A DNA stretch of 64,000 nt from assembly GCF_001634365.1 (NCBI RefSeq), contig NZ_CP014578.1, positions 1,550,001 through 1,614,000 on the forward strand, read 5' to 3'. Shown in pieces: positions 20,787 to 39,430 of the stretch. Below the pieces are notes generated by a model. That model made no database searches and was not told where the DNA came from. It saw only the letters and a program-made list of their open reading frames with translations. Source of the DNA: Paraburkholderia phytofirmans OLGA172 (lineage in GTDB: Bacteria; Pseudomonadota; Gammaproteobacteria; Burkholderiales; Burkholderiaceae). Position numbers and translations under genes: made by a program. The stretch's first letter is position 1. Each line of letters starts with the position of its first letter.

Positions 20787-21644
20787 ATGAGCACGGAGCA
20801 AAAAACACCGGAAGTCAGGATGACCATCGACGATCACGTGTGCCTGATTTCGCTGGACAACGCAGCAAAAAAAAACGCCATCACCCCTGAATTGCTCGAC
20901 CAGCTTTCAAAACATCTTACGACGTTTGATGACGACGACGACTTGTGGGTTGCTGTACTCGATCCGGCGGGGGAACATACCACCGCGGGTTTAGATATGC
21001 CCAAATTCTTTGGGCCAGAAGCCACGGCCAAGCCGATCCCCCCGGACCAAGTAGACCCGTTCGGGCTGGCGCGTCGATGCAAGAAGCCGGTTGTGTCCGT
21101 CGTGCACGGCATCACCTACACGATCGGCATCGAAATGATGCTCGCGAGCGACATCGTGATTGCGGCTGACACGGCAAAGTTCTGTCAACTCGAGTCCAAG
21201 CGGGGTATTGCGCCGCTTGGTGGTGCGCACTTCCGTTATGTGGAGCGTGCCGGTTGGGGTAATGCGATGTACCACCTGTTTCTGTGCGACGAATTCGGGG
21301 CGCAGGAGGCTCTACGGATTGGCTTTGTTCAAGAAGTATTGCCGTATGGACAACATCGCGAGCGGGCGATCGAGATCGCGCGACTCATCTGCAAATGTGC
21401 ACCAATCGGCTTGCGTACAACCAAAGGAGCGGCGTTGATCTACGCCCGTGACGGCGAGGAGAAGGCAATCGCCGCCATTCCCGCCATGCAGGAGACAGTG
21501 TTCGCCACTGAGGACTTTAAAGAAGGAATCCGATCATTTAGGGGTCGTCTCAGAATTCGGAAAAAATCGTACGCTAAGCCACTTGCAGGGGGCGTAGCTG
21601 TGATCTTCGGCGATAAATGGCGGGAAAACTCCAGCGCTATTTGA
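20787..21644 (+). CDS. Enoyl-CoA hydratase/isomerase, C-terminus replaced by transposon sequence
   Basis: A 285-codon frame. Residues 1-251 are a normal crotonase, with HVCLISLDNAAKKNAITPEL, EHTTAGLDMPKFFG (first oxyanion segment), VSVVHGITYTIGIEMMLASD (second) and QLESKRGIAPLGGAHFRYVE. It ends natively in FKEGIRSF at 21540. The remaining 34 residues (RGRLRIRKKSYAKPLAGG onward) are read from the terminal repeat of the Tn3-family transposon that begins at 21541. Only the last few native residues are probably lost, so activity is possible. AAAGGAAAAGCATT precedes ATG 20787. Confidence 0.88.
   Translation: MSTEQKTPEVRMTIDDHVCLISLDNAAKKNAITPELLDQLSKHLTTFDDDDDLWVAVLDPAGEHTTAGLDMPKFFGPEATAKPIPPDQVDPFGLARRCKKPVVSVVHGITYTIGIEMMLASDIVIAADTAKFCQLESKRGIAPLGGAHFRYVERAGWGNAMYHLFLCDEFGAQEALRIGFVQEVLPYGQHRERAIEIARLICKCAPIGLRTTKGAALIYARDGEEKAIAAIPAMQETVFATEDFKEGIRSFRGRLRIRKKSYAKPLAGGVAVIFGDKWRENSSAI
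21541..21578 (+). repeat. Left terminal inverted repeat of the Tn3-family transposon
   Basis: 38 bp beginning GGGGTCGTCTCAGAATTCGG and ending TCGTACGCTAAG, which is the classic Tn3-family GGGGTCGTCTCAGAA start. It pairs with 39393-39430. Confidence 0.92.
21600..21643 (+). repeat. Copy of the tnpA-upstream segment at the left end of the transposon
   Basis: About 44 bp nearly identical, in inverted orientation, to 36328-36371. It includes CTTCGGCGATA followed by an ATG and the codons for MAGK-L/F-QRYL, so it is the first nine codons of the small gene at 36097-36351 followed by unrelated sequence. It marks an internal duplication or an earlier recombination within the element. Confidence 0.75.
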
Positions 21645-21653
21645 CGCATAACG

Positions 21654-22238
21654 TCAGACCGGCTCTGCCTTTCGCCTTACTCGCATGATGGATTGCCGCG
21701 TTGTGGCGTAATCGCGCGCGAGCTGAGAGACGGATTCGCCCGCTGCCAAACGCTGCATGACTTCGGCCTGCTGCATAGCCGTCAACGCCGGAGGGCGTCC
21801 CATTACCGTTCCTTCTGCACGGGCGCGCACGATCCCGGCGTGAGTACGTTCGATCAGCAAGTCACGCTCGAACTCTGCAACTGCGATGAGAACGCCCATG
21901 GTCATCTTCCCGGCGGCACTTGTCAGGTCCACGCCTCCAAGAGCGAGACAATGGACGCGAATGTCATCAATCGCGAGGCGCTCTACCGTCGAGCGTACGT
22001 CCATCGCATTACGGCCGAGGCGATCAAGCTTCGTGACAATGAGCACATCGCCTGGTTCAAGTCGATCCAGCAGACGAGTGAATTGTGGACGCTCGCTGGC
22101 CGTGACGCTGCCGCTAATGTTTTCGGTGACAATGCGTCGCTTATCTACCGCAAAGCCAGCCGCCGCTATTTCGCGTACTTGGTTTTCGGTGTTTTGATCT
22201 GTGGTGCTGACGCGGGCATAAATGAAATTTCGCGACAT
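21654..22238 (-). CDS. tnpR: TnpR serine resolvase
   Basis: A 194-residue serine recombinase of normal resolvase length. The catalytic region is [20 protein letters not shown], with the nucleophile Ser in [27 protein letters not shown] and [20 protein letters not shown] are conserved resolvase segments. A C-terminal helix-turn-helix ends the protein ([20 protein letters not shown]). It resolves the cointegrates made by TnpA at the res site just upstream (22251-22357). It reads toward the left terminal repeat, with the cargo on the far side of res. Confidence 0.96.
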
Positions 22239-22250
22239 CCGGCTCTCTAA

Positions 22251-22357
22251 TATGTACGAAACCGACGTACGATTATTGAATACCGTACGGTACTACGAAA
22301 CACTTACTTTCGTACATATGTGACAGGGGATGTACCGAACCGATCGGTTTCGTACAT
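22251..22357. promoter_or_regulatory. res site of the Tn3-family transposon
   Basis: Three repeat-rich subsites lie upstream of tnpR. A region from TATGTACGAA contains paired GTACG motifs (22251-22272). ACCGTACGGTACTACGAAAC runs to TTTCGTACATA (22282-22319). A near-perfect 28-bp dyad sits at 22330-22357 (ATGTACCGAACC / GGTTTCGTACAT). This is the usual place and build of resolvase binding sites I, II and III. The tnpR promoter should lie within it. Confidence 0.75.
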
Positions 22358-22481
22358 GTTCATGGGACCGAATTCGGCCAAAAGCGGTCCCCCGCATCCC
22401 AATCTGGAACGTCAGCTTACAGATGTGGAAAAGCCGCTCAATATGGAAAACATTCTGGCGTTGTCGCTGGCTTCTCTTGCC

Positions 22482-23327
22482 TCAACGAGTCGACGGCACG
22501 GACGCCAGGATTCGCGCGGCACGTTCGGCTACCGGTCGATCAATCATCTCGCCCTCATGCGCGACCGCCGAGCCACCACTGGCACCAAATTTTGCGAGAA
22601 CATTACGCGCCCACTCTATTTCCGCGGTAGAAGGACAGAACGTTGCGTTCACTGCGAGAACCTGGGCCGGATGAATGCAAAGCTTCCCGCCGAATCCAAA
22701 GCGTTTCGCGCGTGCTGCATGCTCTGAGATGCGAGCTTGGTCCCTCAATTCCAGGCTTACGCCGTCCACCGGAGCAGGGAGCCCGGCGAGGCGCGATTCA
22801 AGGACAAACATGGTGCGCACCGCAGCCAGTTCCATTTCGTCGTCACTGACTGTGATGCTCGCATCGACGCCGAAATCTACGTTGCCGAAAGCAAAACGGT
22901 GAAGTCCCTTGACGGTTGCCATATCGCGCAGACCCAGCACCCCAGCGACCGTCTCGACTAACGCGTAGAGTGCGTGCCGACCATCGATGCGCCTGGCTAC
23001 ATCGCGCACCGTATCAGGCTCGGACTTTGGGCACATGATCGTGACCGAAGACGGTAACTCTGACACGAAGCTCAGATCCTCATCGTGCCACTGGGCTTCT
23101 GGCCCGTTGATACGAACGATGATCTCAGCACTTTCTGCGTGATCCGAAGAAAGCCAACGGAAGATTGCTTCGCGTGCGGCGGCTTTGTTTTGAGGCGCAA
23201 CGGCATCCTCCAGGTCGACGATGACGCCACTTGCGCCTGTGGCGACTGCCTTGTCGAAGCGATCGAAACGATCCCCGGGTACGAACAGCAAGCTGCTGAC
23301 TGATGGGCGAATGATTGTGGTATTCAC
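22482..23327 (-). CDS. CitE/HpcH-type CoA-ester lyase, probable citramalyl-CoA lyase
   Basis: A 281-residue HpcH/HpaI-CitE family lyase. It has RPSVSSLLFVPGDRFDRFDK, VIVDLEDAVAPQNKAAARE (the acidic metal-binding motif), EIIVRINGPEAQWHDEDL and YALVETVAGVLGLRDMATV. RFAFGNVDFGVDASITVSDD and GFGGKLCIHPAQVLAVNATF follow. The family cleaves malyl-, citramalyl- or citryl-CoA with Mg2+. The GTG start at 23327 overlaps the stop of the MaoC-type gene as GTGA, so the two are translationally coupled. Next to a mesaconyl-CoA hydratase-like gene, the most likely reaction is citramalyl-CoA to pyruvate plus acetyl-CoA. The exact substrate is inferred. Confidence 0.9.
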   Translation of the reverse strand: MNTTIIRPSVSSLLFVPGDRFDRFDKAVATGASGVIVDLEDAVAPQNKAAAREAIFRWLSSDHAESAEIIVRINGPEAQWHDEDLSFVSELPSSVTIMCPKSEPDTVRDVARRIDGRHALYALVETVAGVLGLRDMATVKGLHRFAFGNVDFGVDASITVSDDEMELAAVRTMFVLESRLAGLPAPVDGVSLELRDQARISEHAARAKRFGFGGKLCIHPAQVLAVNATFCPSTAEIEWARNVLAKFGASGGSAVAHEGEMIDRPVAERAARILASVPSTR

Positions 23328-24247
23328 ATGTCCTCCAGATGGGCGGTGGCCTGCATTGCGATCGCACCTCTGCTGTCAACGGCGCGCATGTTAAGGCGGC
23401 TGCCGTCATCTGGATCGCACCACGCCTGCAGTTCCAAAGTCTCGTTGACGAACAACGGACTCAGGCCCTTGAACTCGAACGCGCTCAATTTCGATTGAGG
23501 CTTACAGTCCTGGGCAAAGTTTTGCAGGAGGGTGGCCGTCAGCGGGCCGTGAACGACAAGATCTCTGTAGCCTTCGACGTCGCGGGCGTACGACTGATCG
23601 TAGTGAATGCGGTGTCCGTTGAATGTCAGCGCGGAGTAGCGAAAGAGCATTGTGTTGTCAGGCGTCAGGCGCTCGCGCCATTGCACGGGCGCATCGGGCG
23701 CTGCGACTACGTTTGCGGGCCGTGATATTGGCTGGACGGCCTCCCGATACACAATGTCCTGTTCCTCGACAATGTAATCCACCGGTTTTCCCTTGCAATT
23801 GATCGCGATGCGGTGCTCGACGGTCACGAAGCAAAGGCGGCCGGCTCGCCCCTCCTTGTTGGTGATGTGCAGAATGCGGCTGGAACGTGTGGCTTCTGCG
23901 CAGATCGGGAGCTCCGACAGGTAGCGAATCCGGCTCCCGGCCCACATACGGCGTGGCAGAGGTACTGGCGGCAAGAAGCTCGATGCTTCGCGGATCGGGT
24001 GCCCGTCCTCGCCCAGTGAACTACGTCGTGCAACCGGATTGAAAAATAACCAATGCCAACCCGGCGGCAACCGCTTGCCTTCGGCATGCTCGATCGTAAA
24101 ATCGAGGGTCGCGGCAAGCGCCGAGACTGCCGACGGATCGATGCGCTGTCGCAAGACTTCGGTCCGGTGGGTCCAGCCGGGAAAAAGGTTATCCATATCC
24201 ATTCTCGAGCTCTGGGTCGGGGCGTCACTGAAGAGAACTGTATTCAT
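23324..24247 (-). CDS. MaoC/FAS1-like dehydratase, probable mesaconyl-CoA hydratase
   Basis: A 307-residue double-hotdog hydratase. The N-terminal FAS1-type dehydratase domain includes LPPGWHWLFFNPVARRSSLG, HPIREASSFLPPVPLPRRMW and RILHITNKEGRAGRLCFVTV. The C-terminal MaoC-like domain has FRYSALTFNGHRIHYDQSYA and LVVHGPLTATLLQNFA. HRIHYD and VVHGPL are characteristic of mesaconyl-C4-CoA (3-methylfumaryl-CoA) hydratases. It would hydrate mesaconyl-C4-CoA to citramalyl-CoA for the lyase encoded next. ATGA overlaps link it to the MFS gene upstream. A second in-frame start, MDMDNLFPGW, is 15 codons in. Confidence 0.87.
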   Translation of the reverse strand: MNTVLFSDAPTQSSRMDMDNLFPGWTHRTEVLRQRIDPSAVSALAATLDFTIEHAEGKRLPPGWHWLFFNPVARRSSLGEDGHPIREASSFLPPVPLPRRMWAGSRIRYLSELPICAEATRSSRILHITNKEGRAGRLCFVTVEHRIAINCKGKPVDYIVEEQDIVYREAVQPISRPANVVAAPDAPVQWRERLTPDNTMLFRYSALTFNGHRIHYDQSYARDVEGYRDLVVHGPLTATLLQNFAQDCKPQSKLSAFEFKGLSPLFVNETLELQAWCDPDDGSRLNMRAVDSRGAIAMQATAHLEDM

Positions 24248-25557
24248 GATTTGGCCAACTTGGTCGGTGGGAGTGTCACCGCTTTCTTTGCTCGTGAGCG
24301 GGCCGCAAGAAGCACGACTCCTCCGAATACACCCGAGATTCCCAGCGCGATGAACGAAGGGCCGAAGCTCGTCGAAATGGATTTGGTGTAGCCCACCAGC
24401 AATGGCCCCAGAAACTGACCGAGAAAGCTGCCGCCGCCGACGACCACGCCGACCGCGGGAATCGCTTTCCGAAGCGGCAGGATTTCCGTCAGGTAAGAGG
24501 AGATAAGCGGTGTCGGCATTTTCAGCATGAATCCGATAGTCAGAATCAGGGCGATCTGGAGATACAGGAGGTGCGCGGGCGTCATTGCCAGTGCGATCAG
24601 CACGGCGCCGGAGATGATCATCGGGATCGCGGCGTGCCAGCGACGCTCCTGGCCATGCTTATCCGATCGACTCGTGATGTAGTAGATACCCAGCATCGAC
24701 ATGACGAACGGTGCGCCAGATAGCACGCCAACCATCATCCCGCTGATCCTGTTATCGGATTTGAAGATCGTCGGAAGCCACAGCGTCAGGCCGTACAGGA
24801 TGATCTGGCTACAGGCGAATCCGATCATCAGCATCCAGACCGATGGCTCCTTGAAGATCGTGAGCCATGAATCGACGTTTGTGTCTTTGTACGCGGCCTG
24901 CTCTTCGGCCAGGTGGGACTCGATCTTTTCGCGATCTGGCGTGGACAGCCAGCGCGCGGCATCGAGGCGTCGCGGAATCGCATAGAACCACGCGACGCAG
25001 AAGAGCCACGCGGGCAATCCCTCGACGATCATCATTACGCGCCAGTTGTAGTGCGCAAGCACGGCGGCCGATATCGGCCCGGCGAGGAACCCACCGGCAG
25101 CGACACTGAGGTTCCAGATTCCGAATGCACGGCCCCGCTCCGACTTGATGAACCACTGGGCCAGCAGCATCGACGAAGCGGCGTAGATCGGACCTTCGGC
25201 CAGACCAAGGAGAAACCGGATCGCGAGCAGCTCCTGGAAAGTCCGGGCGAGTCCAGTCAGGATCGCGATGCCGCCGAAGAGGATCAAACAGATCCCGATA
25301 AGGCGACGCGGCCCCACCCGAAGCGCGAGATAGCCGGCAAGCAACTGGGTCACGATATAGCCCCACGCGAAGGCGCCGCCGATCCAGCCTGCCTGCACCG
25401 AACTCAGATCCAGCTCTTTCGTGATGTACGGAAGAGCCATGCCGACGTTGACACGATCGAAGAAGGAAATCATGTACATCAGAAACACCGCCGGCATGAT
25501 GATCAACCAGCGCTTCTTCGCCGTATCCGTCTCAGGTATTGCAGTATTCGAGTCCAT
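24244..25557 (-). CDS. MFS transporter, ACS (anion:cation symporter) family
   Basis: A 437-residue carrier with about 12 membrane segments. The ACS signature appears early as MISFFDRVNVGMALPYITKE, followed by GWIGGAFAWGYIVTQLLAGY and FLLGLAEGPIYAASSMLLAQ. The C-half has MLGIYYITSRSDKHGQERRW and the final AVGVVVGGGSFLGQFLGPLL. Family members import carboxylates with protons or cations. Its place between the CoA transferase gene and the hydratase gene, with an ATGA overlap to the latter, suggests it imports the dicarboxylic acid this operon degrades, such as mesaconate or a relative. Confidence 0.9.
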   Translation of the reverse strand: MDSNTAIPETDTAKKRWLIIMPAVFLMYMISFFDRVNVGMALPYITKELDLSSVQAGWIGGAFAWGYIVTQLLAGYLALRVGPRRLIGICLILFGGIAILTGLARTFQELLAIRFLLGLAEGPIYAASSMLLAQWFIKSERGRAFGIWNLSVAAGGFLAGPISAAVLAHYNWRVMMIVEGLPAWLFCVAWFYAIPRRLDAARWLSTPDREKIESHLAEEQAAYKDTNVDSWLTIFKEPSVWMLMIGFACSQIILYGLTLWLPTIFKSDNRISGMMVGVLSGAPFVMSMLGIYYITSRSDKHGQERRWHAAIPMIISGAVLIALAMTPAHLLYLQIALILTIGFMLKMPTPLISSYLTEILPLRKAIPAVGVVVGGGSFLGQFLGPLLVGYTKSISTSFGPSFIALGISGVFGGVVLLAARSRAKKAVTLPPTKLAKS

Positions 25558-25613
25558 ATCGATATCTCCTCCAATGTGCGTCGTCAGTGCGTCGCTGGTA
25601 TGTAGTGGGGTTG

Positions 25614-26861
25614 TTAGCTTGCCGTCGGATCAAGCTCGGGACCGGCAACCACGCCGGCATCGTGCAGCCGCCCGATTTCCGCGCTGCCGAGGCTCAGCAC
25701 TTCGCTCAGCACTTCATCTGTGTGCGTGCCCAACCAGGGCGCGGGTTTCGTCGGCTTGCGCTCCATGGTCGAGGCCCGCACCGTCGCCCCCGCACTGAGG
25801 TGTTCGCCGATACCCGGCGTGACCATGCGCTCGAACACTGGATTGGTGAGGTTGACGCGTGGATCGTTGGCAAGCAGATCGGTCACCGTCCGGTATTGGC
25901 CCCAGCAGACCTTGTGCTCATCGAGCGCCATCGCTGCTTCCCGAAGGCTTCGCCTCGCGAACCACGGCTCGATCAGGTCCGCGATCGCGTTGCGGCCCTC
26001 GAAGCGCTGCGCTTCATCGGAGAAATCGAGGTCCATGCGCGCCTGCAAAGCGGCGACGGATTCGCCTAGGTCGCAGCAGCGGACAAGCGCCTTCCATTGA
26101 CCGCTGGAAATCGCCGCTACCATGATGCGAATACCGTCCACGGTTCCGAAGTCCCGTCCGAACGCGCCGTACAGGTGATTGCCGATCGATGGCCGGTCCT
26201 GTTGCAGCAATTCCGCTTCAGCCAAAAGGCCGAGATGAGACAGCGTGCTGAATGCCATATCTGATAGCGCGAGTTTCAACTCCGCGCCCGCGCCGAGGCG
26301 ACGGCGGTGGTCGACCGCTGCCGCCACGGCAAACGCCGCCTGATACGCGCACGCGATGTCCCAAGCCGGCAGGACGTGATTCACCGGCTTCTCCGGCGAT
26401 CCGCCGCCGGTGACCGCGGGATAGCCCGTCGCGCAGTTGACCGTGTAGTCCACCGCAGTGCTGCCATCGCCGTTGCCTTGAATCGTGCACGTGATTACGT
26501 CGGAACGACGGCTGGCGAGCAGGTCGTGCCGGAGCCACGGCGTGCCGATATTGGTAAGCAATACGCCTGCCTCGGGGCCGGGCGCGGTCACGAGCGCCTG
26601 GATCAGCTCGCGTCCTTCCGGTGTACGCAGGTCGATTGCCACCGAGCGCTTGCCCTTGTTCAGCGCGGTCCAGTACAGGCTCCGGCCCCGCCCCTCGTGA
26701 TGGGGCATGCGCGGCATCCGTCCATAATCAATGCCGCCGCCGATCATGTCGATACGGATGACGTCAGCGCCGAACTGGGCGAGCGCCAGGCCGGCCAGCG
26801 GCGCCGCGATAAACGCGGAACTCTCGATGATCCGCAACGGTTTAAAAAATGGATAAGTCAT
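25614..26861 (-). CDS. CaiB/BaiF-family CoA transferase, probable mesaconyl-CoA isomerase type
   Basis: A 415-residue class III CoA transferase. The N-terminus has FFKPLRIIESSAFIAAPLAG, LAQFGADVIRIDMIGGGIDY and ALNKGKRSVAIDLRTPEGRE. The position of the catalytic Asp is filled by HVLPAWDIACAYQAAFAVAA (D of AWDIA). The C-terminal AGATVRASTMERKPTKPAPW and LGTHTDEVLSEVL are typical. The GGGIDYGRMP stretch and the AWD arrangement recall mesaconyl-C1-CoA to C4-CoA transferases (2-methylfumaryl-CoA isomerase), which fits the hydratase and lyase in the same operon. That function is inferred. Confidence 0.86.
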   Translation of the reverse strand: MTYPFFKPLRIIESSAFIAAPLAGLALAQFGADVIRIDMIGGGIDYGRMPRMPHHEGRGRSLYWTALNKGKRSVAIDLRTPEGRELIQALVTAPGPEAGVLLTNIGTPWLRHDLLASRRSDVITCTIQGNGDGSTAVDYTVNCATGYPAVTGGGSPEKPVNHVLPAWDIACAYQAAFAVAAAVDHRRRLGAGAELKLALSDMAFSTLSHLGLLAEAELLQQDRPSIGNHLYGAFGRDFGTVDGIRIMVAAISSGQWKALVRCCDLGESVAALQARMDLDFSDEAQRFEGRNAIADLIEPWFARRSLREAAMALDEHKVCWGQYRTVTDLLANDPRVNLTNPVFERMVTPGIGEHLSAGATVRASTMERKPTKPAPWLGTHTDEVLSEVLSLGSAEIGRLHDAGVVAGPELDPTAS

Positions 26862-26927
26862 ATCGTTTCACCTGATTCGGAATGCGAACTATGTAGGAAT
26901 CGCACGTGCGACGCGGCGCATATTGAT

Positions 26928-27710
26928 TTATCGGAATGTCGGCGTGCGCTTCTCGAGGAAGGCTGTCACGCCTTCGTTTGCGTCCGAGGAGCAGAAGATC
27001 TGGTCGCTGGCGGTCAACGACTGGCCAACCAGCGCGGCCTCGGAAGTGTCGAAGCAGGCGTTGATCAGAAGTTTCGCTGCCCGCATCGCGCTTTCCGGCT
27101 GCTTCGCGAGCGAGGCAGCGAGCGCTTCGGCCGAAGTCAACGCTGTGCCTCGTTCCACGACTTCCGTCACGAGGCCCCAATCGAGCGCGGTACGGGCATC
27201 GATCGGTTCGCCCAGCAGAATCATCCTTTTCGCGCGCGCCTCGCCAATCTTGCGGGCGATACGGAACGTCCCGCCGCTGCTTGGGAACAGGCCGAGCTTG
27301 ATCTCAGGTAGACACAGGCGAACGTGATCCTCTGCGACGATCATGTCACAGCATGCGGCGATCTCGAGGCCACCCCCGTAGGTGTAGCCGTTGAGCGCGG
27401 CAATCGTGGGTTTGGGAAAGCAGCGGAGCAACTCGAACACCTTGTTCTGGAAAATCAGTTTCTTCTCCAGAACGGCGCCCGGCGTCAGCAGGTCCTTTAT
27501 CTCCGTGATGTCGGAGCCCGCGCAAAAGGCGCGGTCGCCGGCGCCCGTCAGTACGAGCGCGCGCACTTCGTTGTCGCGCTCCAGGTCACGCAGCGCTGCA
27601 TATAGTTCGCGCGTCAGCGGCGCCGACACGACGTTCATGGGAGGATTGGCGAGCGTGATGACCGCATGGCGTCCATGGCGGTCCACCCGGATTTTGGGAG
27701 ATGCGTTCAT
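26928..27710 (-). CDS. Enoyl-CoA hydratase/isomerase (crotonase)
   Basis: A 260-residue crotonase of standard length. It has AVITLANPPMNVVSAPLTRE, LTGAGDRAFCAGSDITEIKD (first oxyanion segment) and ALNGYTYGGGLEIAACCDMI (second). LPEIKLGLFPSSGGTFRIAR follows, with the catalytic-type Glu of PEIKLG, then TALDWGLVTEVVERG near the C-terminus. It looks fully functional. In this operon it could hydrate an unsaturated acyl-CoA formed by the second CoA transferase, or act on a side intermediate; I cannot fix its substrate. Confidence 0.93.
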   Translation of the reverse strand: MNASPKIRVDRHGRHAVITLANPPMNVVSAPLTRELYAALRDLERDNEVRALVLTGAGDRAFCAGSDITEIKDLLTPGAVLEKKLIFQNKVFELLRCFPKPTIAALNGYTYGGGLEIAACCDMIVAEDHVRLCLPEIKLGLFPSSGGTFRIARKIGEARAKRMILLGEPIDARTALDWGLVTEVVERGTALTSAEALAASLAKQPESAMRAAKLLINACFDTSEAALVGQSLTASDQIFCSSDANEGVTAFLEKRTPTFR

Positions 27711-27744
27711 CGTGCATCTCCCGAAAGGCTGACGTCTCGAAGCG

Positions 27745-28527
27745 TTACGCCTCGTCGTCCGCGACCCGGAAGCGTGCCGACTGTGTATAGCGGCTGCGCG
27801 GGTAATAGCTCACCGTGACCTGCACGAGCGACTGGTTCGCGTCGTAATAGAAGCGCGTGATCTGCAGCGCGGCTTCGCCCACTGGTGCCTGTAGCACCTC
27901 GGCCAGTTCTTCGTCCAGCACCGTTGCGGTCACGTCCTGACGGATTTCGCTCACCCGCAGATTGAACATTTTTTCGATGTTCTGATAGACAGGACTGTTC
28001 GACACGGCCGGCTTGACCTGCGCGGCCGCGAAGCGTGGCGGCACGTAGATCCGCACATAGCTCATCGGCAGATCCGAACCGGGCGTCTTCCGCAGGAAGG
28101 TCGCTTCCGACATCAGCAGACCCGGCTTGCACTCGATCTGCTCGGCAAGCGGTCCATCCACGACGACCTCTCGGATCGCGAGCGCATGCATCTCCGTGTT
28201 GCCGACGAACTGCAGCAGGTCTTCCGTCGAATTCACCGCGTTGAAGCGCCCCTGTTTCTGCATGGGCTCCCGCACGATAGTCCCGATGCCCGGATACGAG
28301 GAAATCAGTCCCTTGTCCCGCAGCATCCGCAAGGCAAAGCGTACCGTCTGCCGGCTGACGCCATAGCGCTCGGTCAGTTCCTTTTCCGACGGCAACGTGC
28401 TCGCCGGCAGGTATTTGCCCTCGTGGATCTCGCGGGAAAGAATGTCCGCGAGCGTAGAGTACAGAGGTTGTTGGCCCGCGCTGCGTGCCAGGCGCTCCGG
28501 TACTACTGCTGCTGTATTTATCGCCAT
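27745..28527 (-). CDS. GntR-family (HutC/UTRA type) transcriptional regulator
   Basis: A 260-residue regulator. The N-terminal winged helix has QPLYSTLADILSREIHEGKY, LPSEKELTERYGVSRQTVRF and ALRMLRDKGLISSYPGIGTI. The UTRA effector domain follows (LPMSYVRIYVPPRFAAA, QDVTATVLDEELAEVLQAPV, ALQITRFYYDANQSLVQVTV). I place the start at ATG 28527 (MAINTAAVVPERL) because the upstream 37 in-frame codons are Arg/Ser-rich and unlike the family. It sits in the middle of the operon and likely controls it through the TGTACGTACA palindrome ahead of the first gene. Confidence 0.92.
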   Translation of the reverse strand: MAINTAAVVPERLARSAGQQPLYSTLADILSREIHEGKYLPASTLPSEKELTERYGVSRQTVRFALRMLRDKGLISSYPGIGTIVREPMQKQGRFNAVNSTEDLLQFVGNTEMHALAIREVVVDGPLAEQIECKPGLLMSEATFLRKTPGSDLPMSYVRIYVPPRFAAAQVKPAVSNSPVYQNIEKMFNLRVSEIRQDVTATVLDEELAEVLQAPVGEAALQITRFYYDANQSLVQVTVSYYPRSRYTQSARFRVADDEA

Positions 28528-28649
28528 GAGATTCTGTCTGAGAGGCGCCGCGACGAACTGATCGACCGTCGATCGGCTCCGCGCGCACCGAATGACCGTA
28601 TATTCGCTCATTTTCGGTGTGCGGTTGCGAGAACGCAACCAGTGGCTGT

Positions 28650-29888: not shown

Positions 29889-29910
29889 GTTAAATGTCCG
29901 CCTGTTAGAA

Positions 29911-31904: not shown

Positions 31905-32089
31905 CGCAAGGTCCCCAACGAGATATATCAGATCAGTATAGCTGAAATGTCCGATTTGGCAGTTCTCGCATGGGTTGTCCCTCCCTACACTGCAACGCAT
32001 GCACCGTTGTTCCAGCTTTAAGCGTAACGAGCAGCGGGCTCTCCTCTTCGGAAAGAGGAGCCAAAAGCTCACATTTGGATGGAGACGTT
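31905..32089. promoter_or_regulatory. Divergent LysR/aldolase control region with leader hairpin
   Basis: 185 bp between the divergent starts. An A/T-rich dyad-like stretch (GATATATCAGATCAGTATAGC, 31920-31940) is a likely LysR-binding and promoter area. A bulged hairpin at 32037-32062 (GGCTCTCCTCTT / AAAGAGGAGCC) lies in the leader just before the ribosome-binding site of the aldolase gene. Confidence 0.45.
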
Positions 32090-33013
32090 ATGAAAGCGAT
32101 CGATTTGCGCGGCCTGGTCCCGGCACCCATTACCCCCTTCACCCGCGACGGAGCGGTGGACCACGCAGCAATTCAAAGGCTGGGCTCCTGGCTCGGCAGC
32201 ATCGACGGCGTTAAAGGTCTGACGGTACTCGGCCACGCAGGCGAAGGCACGTTCCTCACGCAGAAAGAACAGGCTGAGGTCATCCAAAGCTTCGTGAAGT
32301 CCGTTCACGGCAAGATTCCAGTCATCGCCGGCATCACACTGGAAGGCACTGAAGTGGCTGTCGAAGAAGCGAAGCGTGCCGTGGAAGCCGGCGCGTCGGC
32401 CGGTCTGGTGTACCCGTCGCACGGCTGGCTGCGCTTCGGTTACCAGAAGGGCGCACCGCAAGACCGCTACCGCGCCATCTACGAAGGCAGCGGCCTGCCC
32501 CTGATTCTTTTCCAGTATCCGGATGCCACCAAGGCGACCTACAACCTTGAAACGCAACTGGAAATCGCCGCACAGCCGGGCGTCTTCGCGATGAAGAACG
32601 GCGTGCGCAACATGCGTCGCTGGGACGTTGAGATTCCCATCATCCGTCGCGAGCGTCCGGAACTGCAAATCCTGACCTGCCACGACGAGTATCTGCTCCA
32701 TACGATGTTTGACGTCGACGGTGCGCTCGTCGGCTACGGCGGCCTGGCTCCCGAGCCGCTCATCGAACTGATCAAAGCGGGCAAGGCGAAAGACTACCAG
32801 GCCGCTCGCGCGATCCATGATCGCCTGCTGCCCGTGACACGCAATGTGTACCACCGTGGCTCGCACATGGAAGGCACCGTTGCACTCAAGCACGGCCTCG
32901 TGGCCCGCGGCATCCTCGAGCACGCCACGGTGCGCTCGCCGTTGCTGCCGCTCGCGGAAGGCGCGGACGTTGAGATCGCAGACGCGCTTCGTTCGGCCGG
33001 CCTCGTCGACTGA
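32090..33013 (+). CDS. DapA-family (dihydrodipicolinate synthase/N-acetylneuraminate lyase) aldolase
   Basis: A 307-residue class I aldolase. It has LVPAPITPFTRDGAVDHAAI, TVLGHAGEGTFLTQKEQAEV (equivalent to the G-T/S-T-GE loop) and KIPVIAGITLEGTEVAVEEA. LPLILFQYPDATKATYNLET carries the active-site Tyr, and PGVFAMKNGVRNMRRWD carries the Schiff-base Lys. Family members make or cleave C-C bonds to pyruvate or dehydrate sugar acids. ATG 32090 is set by GGATGGAGACGTT. With an MFS carrier, a porin and a LysR regulator around it, it is most likely catabolic rather than lysine biosynthetic. Substrate unknown. Confidence 0.9.
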   Translation: MKAIDLRGLVPAPITPFTRDGAVDHAAIQRLGSWLGSIDGVKGLTVLGHAGEGTFLTQKEQAEVIQSFVKSVHGKIPVIAGITLEGTEVAVEEAKRAVEAGASAGLVYPSHGWLRFGYQKGAPQDRYRAIYEGSGLPLILFQYPDATKATYNLETQLEIAAQPGVFAMKNGVRNMRRWDVEIPIIRRERPELQILTCHDEYLLHTMFDVDGALVGYGGLAPEPLIELIKAGKAKDYQAARAIHDRLLPVTRNVYHRGSHMEGTVALKHGLVARGILEHATVRSPLLPLAEGADVEIADALRSAGLVD

Positions 33014-33251
33014 CGCGGCAGCGGCGAACCCAAAGCCGGATGACGATAGTGAAGCGATGCCCCCGCTTCGCTATCAGCGTTGAGCAGTAACGGCGACGCG
33101 CGAAACCTCGTGCCGCGCGTCGTCCATAACAGGATCGGGAAACGACCAAAAAAGCTTCGACGTCGCGACACAATAAGAAAGAAACGCGATCGGTGCTTGA
33201 AAACAAGAAGAAAACCGAGGGCCCATAAAATGCAGCTTTTCAGGAGACAGC

Positions 33252-34694
33252 ATGAACACCCCTTCGACCGCCTACGGCGTCGGCCTTGGTCGATCCCCGA
33301 GCGAAGCGCGCCCCGTGAGCGAGCAATTGCGTGCGGCGAACCTGCTGTTCCGCATCGAGAACGTGCCGTTCTGCAAGTGGCACACCAAGGCACGTATCGT
33401 CATGGGCAGCGCGACCCTCTTTGACGCATTCGACGCACTTTCGCTTGCTTTTGTACTGCCTGTGCTAGTGGGTCTCTGGCATCTTTCTCCCGGGAAGATC
33501 GGCGTGCTGATCGCCGCCGGCTATCTCGGCCAGGTCGTAGGCGCGTTGGTCTTCGGTTGGCTTGCCGAGCGCCTTGGGCGGGTGCCGAGCGCCACAATAA
33601 CTGTCGGTGTCATGTCGGCAATGAGCGTCGTATGCGCCTTCACCGGCAGCCTCCATATGCTGTTTTTGATGCGCTTCCTGCAAGGCATCGGCGTGGGGGG
33701 AGAAGTGCCCGTGGCGGCCACGTACATCAACGAGCTGTCTCAAGCGCATGGCCGAGGACGTTTCTTCATCCTGTACGAACTCATTTTCCCGCTGGGTCTC
33801 CTCGCGGCCGCGCAGCTCGGTGCTTTCATCGTCCCCCGCTTCGGTTGGGAATATATGTTTCTGATCGGCGGCATTCCCGGCATCGCCGTAACGATCCTGA
33901 TCGCACGCCTTCCAGAATCGCCGCGCTGGCTCATTTCACGTGGGCGTTTCGATAAAGCTGAACGCATCATCGAGCGGCTGGAGGCAAGCACGACGAAGCG
34001 CACCCTTGATACTCAGACGCAAAAGACCGAGGTTGACGAGCGCGTGGTGGGCCTTCTGAACGGACTCCAGTCGAAGCAGAAGGGAACGTGGAAGGAGCTT
34101 TTCTCGCCGTTCTACAGAGGACGCACCGTTGTCGTGTGGTTGCTTTGGGCGAGCTCTTATTTCGTGGCCAATGGCATCAACAACTGGCTGCCGAGTCTCT
34201 ACAAGACTGTCTACCATCTACCTCTGCAAGAGTCGCTTCACATGGCGTCCATCTCGAACGTCCTGAGTACGTGCGGGGTGCTGGCTTGCGCGTTGCTGAT
34301 TGATCGAGTCGGGCGCCGCCGCTGGGCAATGGCTTGCTTCATCATCAGTGGAATCCTGCTCGCCGTTCTGGGCATTAATGGCGCTGGCAGCGCATGGTCT
34401 GTGATGTTCCTGGGATCGTCGGCCTATGCTGTGATGGCAACCGCAACGGTCCTTCTGTATCTTTACACCCCTGAAATCTATCCGACCCGGATGCGCGCCA
34501 TCGGTACTGGTCTTGCGACTTCCTGGTTGCGCGCAGCGTCTGCTGCTGCGCCAGCGATCGTCGGCGTCGTATTAACAGGGAAAGGCATCGCTGCGGTATT
34601 CATCATGTTTGCCGTGGTCAGCGGGGTGGGCTTCTTCGTCGCCGGGAGAATGGTGGAGACGACCAATCGCGCTCTCGAAGAGATCTCCCCGTAG
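33252..34694 (+). CDS. MFS transporter (sugar/aromatic-acid type)
   Basis: A 480-residue carrier with about 12 membrane helices and a cytoplasmic loop in the middle. It has LFDAFDALSLAFVLPVLVGL, the loop-2 motif GWLAERLGRVP, and FLQGIGVGGEVPVAATYINE followed by GRGRFFILYELIFPLG. LPESPRWLISRGRFDKAERI is the central SP/SHS-type loop, and LYTPEIYPTRMRAIGTGLAT is the matching C-terminal motif. It likely imports the substrate of the DapA-family aldolase. CAGGAGACAGC precedes ATG 33252. Confidence 0.92.
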   Translation: MNTPSTAYGVGLGRSPSEARPVSEQLRAANLLFRIENVPFCKWHTKARIVMGSATLFDAFDALSLAFVLPVLVGLWHLSPGKIGVLIAAGYLGQVVGALVFGWLAERLGRVPSATITVGVMSAMSVVCAFTGSLHMLFLMRFLQGIGVGGEVPVAATYINELSQAHGRGRFFILYELIFPLGLLAAAQLGAFIVPRFGWEYMFLIGGIPGIAVTILIARLPESPRWLISRGRFDKAERIIERLEASTTKRTLDTQTQKTEVDERVVGLLNGLQSKQKGTWKELFSPFYRGRTVVVWLLWASSYFVANGINNWLPSLYKTVYHLPLQESLHMASISNVLSTCGVLACALLIDRVGRRRWAMACFIISGILLAVLGINGAGSAWSVMFLGSSAYAVMATATVLLYLYTPEIYPTRMRAIGTGLATSWLRAASAAAPAIVGVVLTGKGIAAVFIMFAVVSGVGFFVAGRMVETTNRALEEISP

Positions 34695-34711
34695 TCACTG
34701 GATTCGCTATG

Positions 34712-34745
34712 GCTCCTTGCCCTGATATGACTCAAGGGAAGGAGC
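34712..34745 (+). terminator. Stem-loop between the carrier and the porin
   Basis: GCTCCTTGCCCT pairs with AGGGAAGGAGC (one bulged G) around a 13-nt loop. There is no clear T-run, so it may be a weak terminator or a 3'-end stabiliser that separates carrier and porin expression. Confidence 0.42.
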
Positions 34746-34872
34746 TTCCAGCTCGTAACACCTTCGATTTCAACGCGACAGCTCGCGATTAGCGACAGCT
34801 TCTCCAAGGCAGTCTATTAGTAGTCCTGACTCGATGAATGTCGTTTCAACAAAATTAATGGAGACAACCGAA

Positions 34873-35946
34873 ATGAAAAAGGCACAAGGGGTAACGGGGC
34901 GCCGTTCTGTGGGGAAAGTCGTTGGCACGCTCGGAGTTACGACGATTTTCTGTTCCGCTTTAGCATTGACTTCTGTCGCCGCACACGCAGATAGCGGCTC
35001 GCAGGTCCAACTTTATGGGCTTATCGGCACCTATGTCGGCAGTGTCAAACGTAGTGACACGCCGCAAGCTACGGCACTGATGGGAAGCGGCGGACTTACC
35101 ACTTCGTTCTGGGGAATCGGCGGCAAGGAAGATCTTGGCGGCGGCGTCAGCGCCATCTTCGCCCTCGAGAGCTTCTTTCAACCCCAAAACGGGGCGCAGG
35201 GTCGCAGCTCGGCGGACCCTTTCTGGTCACGCAACGCGTACGTCGGCTTCACTAGCGACTTCGGCCGATTGACCTTCGGGCGGCAAAGGAATCCGACCTA
35301 TACGGAAGAGTCCCTCGTCAATCCGTTCGGATCATCGACCGTCTTTTCTCCGCTCGTCCTCCAGACGTTCGTCACCAATTATGGAGGCACGATCATCGGA
35401 GATACGGTGTGGAATAACACCGCCGAGTACACGACCCCGAACTTTAAGGGTTTCGGCGCAACGGTAATCTATGGCCTTGGCGGCGTCGCGGGTTCGCCCG
35501 GCATCGGTAATCTTGGCGTTCACTTGAATTATCAGGGTCACGGTCTCACGGCAGTGCTGTCCGGCCAGCGCGTGCGCTACACCGCAGCAGGGCCGGTGGG
35601 CGCGCAGTACGCCTACCTCGCGGGCGCAGCATACGATTTCAAGGTCGTGACGCTCTACGGGGCGTGGGCGATGACAAGTGACGTCAGTACCCCTACAGGC
35701 AGCCACACCTACGAGGCGGGTTTGTCGATCCCCTTCTCACCTGCCGACTTCCTGCTTGCAGAGTGGGCGCGTACGCAACGGTCCGGGCCTACCCCTGCGA
35801 CCAACAGCCTTCGCAACACTGCCTCTCTCGGTTACGACCATCTTCTGTCCAAGCGGACGGACATTTACGCGATTTACTCTTTCGACAAGCTGAGCGCCCA
35901 CCCCACCGGCAACACATTTGCCGTCGGCATTCGGCACACGTTCTAG
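34873..35946 (+). CDS. Gram-negative porin (Burkholderia OpcP/OmpC type)
   Basis: A 357-residue outer-membrane porin. ATG 34873 gives a typical signal peptide: basic start MKKAQGVTGRRSVGK, hydrophobic core TLGVTTIFCSALALTSVAA, cleavage near AHA-DSG. The mature chain begins SGSQVQLYGLIGTYVGSVKR. It has the usual strands SFWGIGGKEDLGGGVSAIFA, FWSRNAYVGFTSDFGRLTFG and FGRQRNPTYTEESLVNPFG, and ends AVGIRHTF with the C-terminal Phe needed for membrane insertion. It should let the substrate of the neighbouring carrier cross the outer membrane. Confidence 0.94.
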   Translation: MKKAQGVTGRRSVGKVVGTLGVTTIFCSALALTSVAAHADSGSQVQLYGLIGTYVGSVKRSDTPQATALMGSGGLTTSFWGIGGKEDLGGGVSAIFALESFFQPQNGAQGRSSADPFWSRNAYVGFTSDFGRLTFGRQRNPTYTEESLVNPFGSSTVFSPLVLQTFVTNYGGTIIGDTVWNNTAEYTTPNFKGFGATVIYGLGGVAGSPGIGNLGVHLNYQGHGLTAVLSGQRVRYTAAGPVGAQYAYLAGAAYDFKVVTLYGAWAMTSDVSTPTGSHTYEAGLSIPFSPADFLLAEWARTQRSGPTPATNSLRNTASLGYDHLLSKRTDIYAIYSFDKLSAHPTGNTFAVGIRHTF

Positions 35947-35983
35947 GAAGCGTTAGCCCTTTTGTCGTCGCTTCCTTTCTTTG
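35945..35983 (+). terminator. Intrinsic terminator after the porin gene
   Basis: AGGAAGCG (35945-35952) and CGCTTCCT (35969-35976) form a stem around a 16-nt loop and are followed by TTTCTTT. It starts right at the porin stop. Confidence 0.65.
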
Positions 35984-36096
35984 AAAAGCTCGGCGGCAGA
36001 CCGGTTACGGGCCGGTCATATACCTGGCGAGCCACCGATTTTGATACCCACTATTGACGAGGCCTGGCGGGAGGCCACCCGCGATAGCTCCCGTTA

Positions 36097-36351
36097 TCAA
36101 GGGAGCAGTTTCTTAGGCATTGGTAGCGTCAAAGAAGGCGAGTCGATCAACTGTACCATCGCCGTGTCGTCGCGATCCGTCCTTGCCTTTCCGCGACCGT
36201 TGTACCTGGCAAGCAGCCGCAGACCGTCGTCCGGATCGTACGGCCGAGAAGGGTCGATCGCGGTCCTTGGGGACGTCACCCCGAGAACGCATCGCGCAAA
36301 GCCGTCAGCACCGTCCATTCGCACCAGATAGCGCTGAAATTTTCCCGCCAT
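36097..36351 (-). CDS. Conserved small protein of the transposon (84 aa, unknown)
   Basis: The protein is MAGKFQRYLVRMDGADGFAR, then CVLGVTSPRTAIDPSRPYDP, ending LPMPKKLLP. Its composition is natural, unlike nearby shadow frames. Its first nine codons and upstream sequence recur at the left end of the transposon (21600-21643), so it is part of the element rather than the cargo. It runs opposite to tnpA, which starts 80 bp away, so they share a divergent promoter region. Function unknown; an accessory or regulatory role in transposition is a guess. Confidence 0.55.
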   Translation of the reverse strand: MAGKFQRYLVRMDGADGFARCVLGVTSPRTAIDPSRPYDPDDGLRLLARYNGRGKARTDRDDTAMVQLIDSPSLTLPMPKKLLP

Positions 36352-36430
36352 CTATCGCCGAAGATAACACGCCCGGATGAGACCGGTGGATCTTCTCGAA
36401 AACCTAAGTTTTCAAGAAAAAGGAGACTTC

Positions 36431-39397
36431 ATGCCACGCCGTTCGATCCTGTCCGCCGCCGAGCGGGAAAGCCTGCTGACATTGCCCGATACCGAAGACG
36501 AATTGATCCGGCATTACACGTTCAGCGAGACTGACCTGTCGTTGATTCGCCTGCGGCGCGGCGATGCGAACCGGCTGGGGGTTGCTGTGCAATTGTGCTT
36601 GCTGCGCTTTCCAGGCCAAGGGCTGCTGCCCGATACCACGGTGCCGGCGTCCCTGCTGCAATGGATTGGTCGGCAACTGCGTACCGATCCGGCGTGCTGG
36701 TCAAAGTATGCCGGGCGCGAGGAAACCCGGCGTGAGCATCTGCTTGAGTTGCGCGCATACCTTGGCATGGAACCGTTCGGCTTGACACACTACCGGCAGA
36801 CCGTCCATGCCGCCACCGAACAGGCCTTGCAGACGGACAAGGGTATCGTGCTGGCTACCCGTGTCCTCGACTCGCTTCGCCACCGGCACATCATGATCCC
36901 GGCGCTGGATGTCATCGAGCGCATTTGCTCCGAAGCCATCACCCGTGCCAATCGGCGCATCTATGCGTCGTTGTCCGAGCCTTTGTTGGACGCGCACCGC
37001 CGTCGCCTCGACGACCTGCTGAAACGTCGCGAAAACGGCAAGACGACCTGGCTGGCCTGGCTGCGTCAGTCGCCCGTCAAACCGAATTCGCGCCACATGC
37101 TCGAACACATCGAACGCCTCAAAGCTTGGCAGGCACTCGAACTGCCCGCCGGCATCGAGCGGCTGGTTCACCAGAACCGGCTGCTCAAGATCGCCCGAGA
37201 GGGCGGCCAGATGACGCCTGCCGACCTAGCTAAGTTCGAACCGCAGCGACGCTACGCGACTCTCGTGGCGCTGACCATCGAGGGCATGGCTACCGTAACC
37301 GACGAAATCATCGACCTGCACGACCGCATCCTGGGCAAGCTGTTCAACGCCGCCAAGAACAAGCATCAGCAGCAATTCCAGGCGTCCGGCAAAGCCATCA
37401 ACGCCAAGGTGCGCCTGTATGGGCGCATCGGCCAGGCGCTGATAGATGCCAAGCAATCTGGCCGTGACCCGTTCGCCGCCATCGAGGCTGTCATGTCCTG
37501 GGATGCCTTCGCCGAGAGCGTCACAGAGGCACAGAAGCTCGCTCAGCCCGAGGACTTCGATTTTCTGCACCGTATCGGCGAGAGCTATGCCACGTTGCAC
37601 CGCTATGCGCCGGAATTCCTCGACGTGCTCAAGCTGCGGGCCGCGGCCGCCGCCAAAGGCGTGCTCGATGGCATTGAGGTGCTCCGCAGCATGAATGCCG
37701 ACAACGCCCGCAAGGTGCCCGCCGATGCAACGACCGGCTTCATCAAGAAGCGCTGGGAAAAGTTGGTGAAGACCGATACCGGCATCGACCGGCGCTACTA
37801 CGAGCTGTGTGCCCTGTCTGAGTTGAAAAACTCGCTGCGCTCAGGTGACATCTGGGTGCAAGGGTCGCGCCAGTTCAAGGACTTCGAGGACTACCTGCTG
37901 CCAACCGTGAAGTTCGCCAGCCTCAAGCAGTCCAGCGAATTGCCGCTGGCCGTTGCCACCGACGGCGACCAGTACCTGCATGACCGGCTGGCGCTGCTGA
38001 AAGCGCAGCTTGCCACGGTCAACCGCATGGCACTCGCCAACGAACTGCCGGACGCCATCGTCACCGAGTCCGGCTTGAAGATCACGCCGCTGGATGCCGC
38101 GGTGCCCGACAACGCACAGGCGCTGATCGACCAGACGGCCATGATCCTGCCGCACGTCAAGATCACCGAATTGTTGCTCGAAGTCGATGAGTGGACGTGC
38201 TTCACCCGTCACTTTCCGCACCTGAAATCGGGCGACCTGGCCAAGGACAAGAATCTCTTGCTGACCACCATTCTGGCCGATGCGATCAATCTGGGCCTGA
38301 CTAAAATGGCTGAATCGTGCCCCGGCACGACCTACGCCAAGCTCGCGTGGCTGCAAGGTTGGCACATCCGCGACGAAACCTATTCAACGGCGCTGGCGGA
38401 GCTGGTGAATGCCCAATTCCGGCACCCGTTCGCCGGGCACTGGGGTGACGGCACTGCGTCCTCATCGGACGGCCAGAACTTCAGAGCAGGTGGCAAAGCA
38501 GAAAGCACTGGTCATATCAACCCGAAGTACGGAAGCAGCCCAGGACGGACTTTCTACACCCACATCTCCGACCAGTACGCGCCGTTTCACACCAAGGTGG
38601 TCAATGTCGGCGTGCGCGACTCGACCTATGTGCTCGACGGCCTGCTGTACCACGAGTCCGACTTGCGCATTGAGGAACACTACACCGACACGGCTGGCTT
38701 CACCGATCATGTCTTCGGCTTGATGCATCTGCTGGGCTTCCGCTTCGCACCGCGCATCCGTGATCTGGGCGACACCAAGCTCTACATCCCCAAGGGCGAA
38801 GCCACCTATGACGCCCTCAAGCCGATGATCGGCGGCACGTTCAACATCAAGCACGTCCGCGCCCATTGGGACGAAATCCTGCGGCTGGCCACCTCGATCA
38901 AGCAGGGCACGGTGACGGCCTCGCTGATGCTGCGCAAGCTCGGCAGCTACCCACGCCAGAACGGCCTGGCTGTCGCCTTGCGCGAGCTGGGCCGCATCGA
39001 GCGCACGCTGTTCATCTTGGACTGGCTACAAAGCGTGGAACTGCGCCGCCGCGTCCATGGCGGGCTGAACAAGGGCGAGGCCCGCAACGCGCTAGCCCGC
39101 GCCGTGTTCTTCAACCGCCTAGGCGAAATCCGTGATCGCAGTTTCGAGCAGCAGCGCTACCGGGCGAGCGGCCTCAATCTGGTGACGGCGGCCATCGTGT
39201 TGTGGAACACGGTCTACTTGGAGCGGGCGGCGAATGCGTTGCGTGGTAACGGCAACGGCGTCGATGACGGACTGTTGCAATACCTGTCACCGCTGGGTTG
39301 GGAGCACATCAACCTGACCGGCGATTACCTCTGGCGCGGAAGCACCAGGATCGGAGCGGGCAAGTTCACGCCGCTACGCCCCCTGCAAGCAGCTTAG
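36431..39397 (+). CDS. tnpA: TnpA, Tn3-family transposase
   Basis: A 988-residue transposase, the classic Tn3-family length. The N-terminal domain starts [20 protein letters not shown] and [20 protein letters not shown]. The DDE catalytic half contains [20 protein letters not shown] (first Asp region), [20 protein letters not shown] and [20 protein letters not shown] (second Asp region). [20 protein letters not shown] and [20 protein letters not shown] follow near the end. The ATG at 36431 is chosen because AAAAGGAGACTTC precedes it; the frame opens 18 codons earlier. The stop codon lies inside the right terminal repeat. It appears intact and probably functional. Confidence 0.97.
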
Positions 39398-39430
39398 CGT
39401 ACGATTTTTCCCGAATTCTGAGCCGCCCCC
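39393..39430 (-). repeat. Right terminal inverted repeat of the Tn3-family transposon
   Basis: 38 bp; the complement begins GGGGGCGGCTCAGAATTCGG and ends TCGTACGCTAAG. It differs from the left repeat at three positions and overlaps the last two codons and stop of tnpA. Confidence 0.92.

Follow-up and report, generated by a model that had tools for sequence, protein, structure and literature searches.

A probable nested hybrid in Paraburkholderia phytofirmans OLGA172: a Tn21-type transposon shell around a TniAB-type core with two catabolic modules

We analyzed a stretch of 64,000 nucleotides (nt) from Paraburkholderia phytofirmans OLGA172 (contig NZ_CP014578.1, positions 1,550,001 to 1,614,000; below, 'the window', whose own numbering is used throughout). 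At 21541-39430 it contains an element that an earlier note, made from the letters alone, had described as a self-contained Tn3-family transposon carrying two catabolic modules. We read this element, with a probability of about 0.7, as a nested hybrid: a Tn21-type shell enclosing a TniAB-type transposon, which carries the cargo and has lost its own transposase, the whole having been rearranged later. The sequence establishes two sets of ends, an intact transposase and an intact resolvase, the absence of tniA and tniB, the lack of a target duplication and two broken flanks. The parts are all of known kinds; the nesting itself would be ordinary, because TniAB-type 'res-site hunters' are known, from a passage of PMC7765201, to nest in Tn21/Tn501-type carriers. 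A literature search found no description of this element, which is no proof of absence.

In outline, a Tn3-family transposon of the Tn21 subgroup would have supplied the two outer 38-bp ends and the transposase. A TniA/TniB transposon (Mu-type, Tn552/Tn5053-like) inside it would have lost tniA and tniB, kept its termini, resolvase and res, and gained the two catabolic modules. Features are collected in Table 1; L and G numbers are our handles for comparison loci and genomes.

The outer shell and the inner element

The outer inverted arms, 58 nt long and 91% complementary, lie at 21541-21598 and 39373-39430, which bears out the element's coordinates exactly. Within them the 38-nt Tn3-type repeats are present at both ends, as had been claimed, and mismatch each other at three positions. 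The right repeat deviates from 16 relatives at positions 5, 8 and 21, where the relatives have T, T or C, and A (16/16; rows L037 and L043 of this comparison were one base off register and were realigned by eye). The three substitutions may weaken that end.

The transposase proved to be intact, as the earlier note held. Its open reading frame (ORF) spans 36377-39397, with a likely start at 36431, and the full-length product scored 518 bits with Pfam DDE_Tnp_Tn3 and 1275 bits with the NCBIfam Tn3 transposase model (cut-off 500). Residues 4-983 align with the Tn4430 transposase of known structure, and the regions around the D, D and E residues, which we take to be the catalytic ones, are conserved in this alignment. 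At the DNA level tnpA is 87% identical to transposases on many plasmids. The ratio of nonsynonymous to synonymous substitution rates (dN/dS) was 0.09-0.14 in six of seven comparisons (L004, L005, L035, L036, L038 and L048, with identical figures for L004, L035 and L036; the seventh, with L027, fell on another ORF and was dropped); tnpA is therefore under purifying constraint. Terminal repeats of 38-40 bp or more together with a full-length DDE transposase of the Tn3 kind place the shell in the Tn3 family; by its repeat sequences it would belong to the Tn21 subgroup.

A second pair of inverted ends lies inside the first. A 45-nt motif (TGTGATCTTCGGCGATAAATGG...) starts at 21599, directly behind a scrap of transposase sequence that follows the left repeat, and an inverted copy starts at 36369 (21599-21643 and 36325-36369; 40/45 identical, 89%). 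The element so delimited, 21599-36369, has 45-nt TG...CA ends and encloses the resolvase and all of the cargo. The self-contained transposon proposed earlier is thus not supported, since the resolvase and all cargo sit inside a second element with ends of its own.

A 29-nt pattern of the motif (up to two mismatches) was found in 8 of 144 genomes of the genus, this one included, and a reversed control was found in none. The present genome holds one forward and one reverse copy only, at the two ends described. Aligned copies of the motif start sharply at TG. In L022 the motif adjoins a TniB-like AAA gene, followed by a TniA-like gene (rve and Mu-transpos_C domains) and then by a resolvase. With L022 as reference, 11 copies were tested for a TniB C-terminus beside the motif: it is still encoded in L031 and L030 (0/200 shuffles as good) and, with 2/200 and 3/200, in L023 and L025; the other six copies, both window ends included, do not encode it. 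Among 15 listed plasmid records similar to the L022 end, five match from 8 nt or less of the terminus, two of Methylobacterium exactly from it.

Three plasmid-borne TniAB elements in which both ends were identified, L167, L168 and L169, have termini 30-36/45 identical to the window ends (shuffles compared with the left window end reached at most 23). From end to end, L167 and L169 consist of terminus, tniB, tniA, resolvase, 80 nt and terminus; the window has a terminus, 55 nt, the resolvase and res on the left and a 112-nt TniB-side end on the right, with cargo in place of tniA and tniB. The two genes gave no tblastn match at 1e-3 in the window, where only a short TniB-side DNA remnant was seen. 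Family-type termini in inverted orientation and a serine resolvase with res near one end make the inner element one of the TniAB type; as tniA and tniB are absent, we file it as a derivative and not as a complete member.

Two other origins of the 45-nt pair were considered and rejected. For an IS21-type end, suggested by the shape of the pair, the contexts in L022, in L030, in L031 and on plasmids indicate TniAB instead, and Pfam recognized no IstA or IstB among ten proteins around solo copies; for the 3′ end of tnpR, the stretch lies outside the resolvase ORF and recurs without a resolvase. As a separate observation, L168 (12002-16636, on a Granulicella plasmid, from another phylum) is a TniAB-type transposon with both ends that has an annotated epoxide hydrolase gene between the resolvase and the far end.

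At the left end of the element the two families are joined. The scrap matches the last tnpA codons at the opposite end of the element; in L027 and L005 the corresponding 20 nt of the non-tnpA end agree with their own tnpA end at 8/20 positions each. In G385, G417 and G249 the tnpA-side end matches the window's left end over 58-68 nt, the other end over 38-39 nt. To judge by these matches, the left end may be read as a second tnpA-side end in inverted position. The same left-end module, including the joint of scrap and TniAB terminus, recurs in G018 (93% over 21539-22359); the two differ beyond about 22380, with other neighbours past res in G018. Among the 144 genus and 398 family genomes searched, with at most two places scored in each, the module was common to G018 only. 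One could also think that a single Tn3 element had one end converted by the other, or simply that the repeat is a long one; either would account for arms of 58 rather than 38 nt, and longer repeats in the family are mentioned in a passage of PMC7157771. We regard this as quite improbable: the 38-nt repeats differ at three positions, making recent conversion unlikely, and the TniAB terminus right behind the scrap, as well as the same joint in G018, would be left unexplained.

The resolvase is intact and accompanied by res-like repeats, recognized by eye, in agreement with the earlier note; a 28-nt palindromic subsite of the res-like site, again judged by eye (22330-22357), has 27/28 positions the same in G018. 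The closest resolvases with a transposon context that we found belong to the TniAB elements L167 and L169 (62-63% identity), against 33-38% for the Tn3 elements L004, L005 and L027. In L004 tnpR abuts tnpA, unlike the arrangement in the window. We infer that the resolvase came with the TniAB element; being the sole resolvase in the element, it would now serve the outer transposase.

A number of observations weigh against the nested hybrid. The TniAB resolvases of L022 and L168 are only 36% identical to the one in the window, and 32 resolvase relatives in genome contigs (31 at 59-83%, one at 32%) lack both tnpA and TniAB in the flanks examined; the resolvase lineage is therefore not tied to TniAB. 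Moreover, resolvases in Tn3 context are only 37-47% alike among themselves, so that 33-38% to the window enzyme says little, and L005 and L027, like the window, have their resolvase at the end opposite tnpA. As for the inner ends, the tniB remnant at 36258-36324 is visible as DNA only and not as protein (152/200 shuffles as good), the remaining 10 of the 15 listed plasmid records match only from about the tniB stop onward, and a search of the plasmid collection gave nothing for the 62-nt inner end. The L022 element yielded no partner end, and none was seen close to the solo motif copies. The inner pair is not flanked by a duplication (GTAGC on one side, CGCCC on the other); among the TniAB elements with both ends, one of three has a target duplication (7 bp in L169, none in L167 and L168). 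At the left end, the identical matches of G385 and G417 may stem from a single element, the two ends in G249 have no duplication or common flank and may not belong together, and in G018 no second outer end was found within about 29 kb downstream. Also, Tn3-family repeats sometimes exceed 38-40 bp, according to part of PMC7157771.

Could the element then be a plain Tn3-family transposon of the Tn21 subgroup, which brought along its own resolvase and two passenger modules in a single insertion and lost its duplication later, so that the 45-nt pair is an internal Tn3 feature? The outer ends, the transposase and the layout (resolvase on the minus strand, cargo, tnpA on the plus strand, as in L027 and L005) would suit it, as would a left repeat that is the same as an L027 repeat and the diversity of Tn3-context resolvases. 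We find it unlikely, as different genes are broken at the two ends, tnpA 3′ sequence stands at the left end, the 45-nt motif is elsewhere a TniAB terminus and the nearest transposon-context resolvases are those of L167 and L169.

Flanks, history and mobility

Insertion of a Tn3-type element yields 5-bp direct repeats (stated in a passage of PMC4133298), and the Tn3 relative L027 of the same genus has such a duplication, ATGAA on each side. At the outer ends of the present element it is not present (ATTTA on the left, AATCA on the right). The missing duplication speaks to the history of the element, not to the kinship of its ends and tnpA; it can have been lost later.

The left-flank enoyl-CoA hydratase gene has a paralogue in the same genome (G000:C1:1676157-1676959, 98% identical), in which the gene is whole and whose similarity to the window ends precisely at the repeat; a search of the rest of the genome did not recover the 3′ end that the window's gene has lost. 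The right-flank gene has a homologue in G004 with a longer N-terminal part, the alignment being gapless, by eye, up to the repeat. Since the left paralogue and the G004 homologue each extend past the junction, the two flanks are different broken genes. A simple self-contained Tn3 transposon does not agree with the missing duplication, two different truncated flank genes and a tnpA scrap joined to the terminus of a second transposon. Replicative transposition inside one replicon can delete DNA beside an element and thereby leave two unlike broken flanks; we infer that the present flanks arose by later rearrangement, for example by such an adjacent deletion through intramolecular transposition.

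Both flanks have features of their own. A stretch of 803 bp with the enoyl-CoA hydratase gene (window 20738-21540; the paralogue interval given above, L094 8158-8960) is duplicated at 98%, and its second copy is found at a distance of about 105 kb, close to a paralogous acyl-CoA ligase; since the similarity between the two ligases is no more than about 73%, recent copying or conversion of the stretch is probable. To the right of the element, a gene for 480 amino acids at 41076-42518 has no Pfam match; 13 other genomes of the 144 contain its DNA at 81-99% over 450 nt or more, full copies forming a block of about 1.5 kb, and it looks like an insertion sequence.

As to movement, copy-type transposition by TnpA, which would pair the outer repeats, would generate a cointegrate that the inner resolvase could resolve at its own res, inside the duplicated unit. 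The potential mobility suggested by the earlier note may still hold; movement of the whole unit was not seen. One copy of the element was found in its own genome (left end, 21/21 candidates scored; tnpA, 40/78 candidates scored). Neither a second copy nor an empty site was found for the whole unit, the closest to an empty site being the intact left-flank paralogue. None of the 5000 best-scoring plasmid records covers 80% of 20000-41000 in one place, and none of the other genomes among the 144 of the genus, with at most two places scored in each, was seen to combine the left end with modules 1 and 2. We put the chance that the whole unit is mobile at present at roughly one in three.

An explanation compatible with the nested anatomy, yet denying mobility, is a dead composite of relics, its ends and cargo having piled up in an insertion hot spot without ever moving as a whole. 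We give it somewhat less than an even chance. It fits with the missing duplication, the single copy, a combination found in no other genome in the searches made, right-repeat substitutions at positions that are constant or T/C in the 16 relatives, truncated neighbours and the insertion-sequence-like gene at 41076-42518; it fits poorly with a tnpA and a resolvase that are intact and constrained, with two nested end pairs in proper inverted orientation, the inner of which encloses all cargo, and with a left module shared with G018.

One could speculate, on the contrary, that the nested hybrid is a working vehicle. A Tn21-type transposase would have assumed control of a TniAB-type transposon in which metabolic cassettes had replaced the transposase genes, and the TniAB resolvase would resolve Tn21-type cointegrates. 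The left-end module (repeat, scrap, terminus, resolvase, res) would circulate as a ready-made end taking different cargo just past res, as the G018 copy suggests. We consider this extension doubtful. A resolvase-driven cargo swap beside res is possible; a strict break at the res crossover between the window and G018 was rejected, as homology spans the whole of res and fades after about 22380.

Table 1. Features of the element and its flanks, in window coordinates
Feature	Coordinates	Strand	Basis
Left flank: enoyl-CoA hydratase gene, interrupted close to its 3′ end by the transposon terminus	20787..21540	+	Pfam ECH_1; paralogue
Left 38-nt Tn3/Tn21-type terminal inverted repeat	21541..21578	+	same as tnpA-side repeat of L027 (0 mismatches)
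20-nt scrap of transposase 3′ end	21579..21598	-	18/20 identical to inner side of right repeat
TniAB-type transposon terminus, resolvase side (TGTGATC...)	21599..21643	+	motif comparisons
Serine resolvase, intact	21654..22238	-	Pfam Resolvase 122 bits and HTH_7
res-like site, TGTACGAAA / TTTCGTACA repeats	22249..22357	.	judged by eye
(S)-citramalyl-CoA lyase-like (RipC/Ccl-like, CitE-like)	22482..23327	-	Pfam, NCBIfam, solved relatives
MaoC-type hydratase	23324..24247	-	one of two solved relatives bears the name itaconyl-CoA hydratase; no NCBIfam match
MFS transporter	24244..25557	-	Pfam, NCBIfam
Mesaconyl-CoA C1-C4 isomerase-like family III CoA transferase	25614..26861	-	Pfam, NCBIfam, solved relatives
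Enoyl-CoA hydratase	26928..27710	-	Pfam, NCBIfam
GntR/UTRA regulator	27745..28638	-	
Family III CoA transferase, dicarboxylate type	28650..29888	-	Pfam, NCBIfam
Perfect 25-nt palindrome in inter-module spacer	30476..30529	.	short partial matches nearby in Cupriavidus replicons (megaplasmids)
Cargo cassette 2 as a block	30691..36257	+	93% to G055
LysR regulator, true start probably inside	30960..32072	-	Pfam
DapA-superfamily lyase/dehydratase	32090..33013	+	Pfam, NCBIfam
MFS transporter	33252..34694	+	Pfam
Porin	34834..35946	+	Pfam
TniB-side end of inner transposon; terminus 36325-36369 (...GATAACA)	36258..36369	-	79% to L025 over 94 nt; cassette homology ends at 36257
tnpA, Tn3-family transposase, 988 amino acids from likely ATG	36431..39397	+	Pfam, NCBIfam, Tn4430 alignment
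Right 38-nt terminal inverted repeat	39393..39430	-	substitutions at positions 5, 8, 21
Right flank: SIR2-like gene without its 5′ part	39431..40959	+	SIR2_2 below curated cut-off; G004 homologue

Two catabolic modules

The two catabolic modules named in the earlier note were both recovered: a CoA module at 22482-29888 and a module of LysR, DapA-like, MFS and porin genes spanning 30960-35946. Module 1, all on the minus strand, consists of two family III CoA transferases, a regulator, a crotonase, an MFS carrier, a MaoC protein and a CitE-like lyase. The product of 25614-26861 is nearest to the solved structures 7xkg (acyl-CoA transferase-like, 423 bits) and 8apq (2-methylfumaryl-CoA isomerase, 414 bits), the next one scoring 77; we take 7xkg to be the Roseiflexus enzyme of PMC9196870. 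The nearest solved relatives of the lyase at 22482-23327 are acyl-CoA lyase beta chains, and its NCBIfam model is RipC/Ccl. By homology a CoA transferase, a C1-C4 isomerase, a hydratase and a citramalyl-CoA lyase are all four in one operon, with NCBIfam scores below the cut-offs (isomerase, 437 of 725; lyase, 157 of 375; succinyl-CoA:mesaconate transferase, 250 of 700).

From these protein families we predict a pathway for mesaconate or C5 dicarboxylates. Mesaconate (or a related C5 dicarboxylate) would be converted to mesaconyl-C1-CoA, then to mesaconyl-C4-CoA and citramalyl-CoA, and finally to acetyl-CoA and pyruvate, the putative substrates being those that the families suggest. The chemistry behind this reading is described in parts of PMC5592240, PMC12290011 and PMC9196870. 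Matches to module 1 at E <= 1e-50 were found in 8 of the 144 genus genomes besides its own, over about 0.8-1.25 kb of 7.5 kb (at most two places scored per genome). The most similar of three plasmid clusters viewed, on a Paraburkholderia plasmid, is made up of much the same genes (CoA transferase, MaoC, CoA ester lyase, MaoC, CoA transferase, MFS).

Module 2, judging from its genes, would import and process some acid. It is present in nine other genus genomes of the 144 (about 4.5-5.6 kb, 85-93%; at most two places scored per genome) and also in records of Burkholderia cepacia and B. arboris (86%). Flanks were compared, in pieces of >400 nt, for eight of the nine genomes (L159-L166) and the two Burkholderia records: long shared flanks exist only between the Burkholderia pair, and the other carriers agree over the cassette plus at most some hundred bases, except for a separate 835-nt piece common to L159 and L160. 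Since flanks differ among carriers, module 2 seems to travel as a cassette of its own.

The palindrome in the spacer between the modules (30476-30529) is preceded by GTCTCAC repeats and is perhaps an insertion sequence end; the Cupriavidus records with a match have no annotation at the matching site that would name its source.

The earlier note had said that it would be refuted if related transposons never contained this cargo and the cargo flanks had insertion scars of their own. To a large extent this is what we found: the related elements L005 and L027 and the left module of G018 carry other cargo, the searches made gave no other genome or plasmid with this combination, and the cargo here is bounded by inner insertion ends.

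Relation to known systems

Matching terminal repeats and an intact transposase do not prove a self-contained transposon; here the reading was changed by the duplication check, by the intact paralogue of the flank gene and by the second pair of ends. The element illustrates how two transposon families may jointly package metabolic pathways. Should the hybrid function, it would become testable whether the resolvase of one family serves the cointegrates of another, and how catabolic cassettes enter beside res.

The predicted pathway of module 1 has a CoA transferase, a MaoC-type hydratase and a citramalyl-CoA lyase in common with an itaconate/methylsuccinate cluster of Pseudomonas and Cupriavidus (described in part of PMC12290011). 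Unlike that cluster, the window includes a crotonase and a gene resembling mesaconyl-CoA isomerase, and neither an acyl-CoA dehydrogenase nor an MmgE/PrpD gene was recognized in it.

The inner element resembles the TniAB-type transposons (Tn552-like; the res-site hunters Tn5053 and Tn402) in its TG...CA ends and, like L167 and L169, in a resolvase near one end with a TniB side at the other. It differs from them in the loss of tniA and tniB, in its catabolic cargo and in its 45-nt terminal motif, the repeats of Tn5053/Tn402 being 25 bp according to a passage of PMC7765201.

The shell is like the Tn21/Tn501 subgroup (L004, L005, L027) in its 38-nt repeats and in a 988-residue transposase whose DNA is 87% identical to plasmid-borne relatives; the copy-type transposition to be expected of this subgroup is treated in a section of PMC7157771. 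Unlike these elements, it has tnpA 3′ sequence and a TniAB terminus at its left end, no 5-bp duplication and a right repeat deviant at three positions. The relative L027 (3715-15448; G092:C19) is an 11.7-kb Tn3-type element with its 5-bp duplication; names read off the sequences suggest that it carries a two-component system, an MFS carrier, a ferredoxin-reductase-like protein and, beside tnpA, an isoprenyl-transferase-like gene.

Catabolic Tn3-family transposons, such as Tn4651 and Tn4655, are likewise of Tn3 type with degradation genes, and the present element differs from them in its pathway and in its nested TniAB-type core. Degradation of organic catabolites is a named passenger function of Tn3 elements in an excerpt of PMC7157771. 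Mosaics of the TIME, TIME-COMP and TIME-RES kinds, as described in parts of PMC4133298 and PMC13367494, are non-standard Tn3 units made from ends plus, in TIME-RES, a resolvase module; unlike them, the element in the window has a full transposase and, inside it, the termini of a second family.

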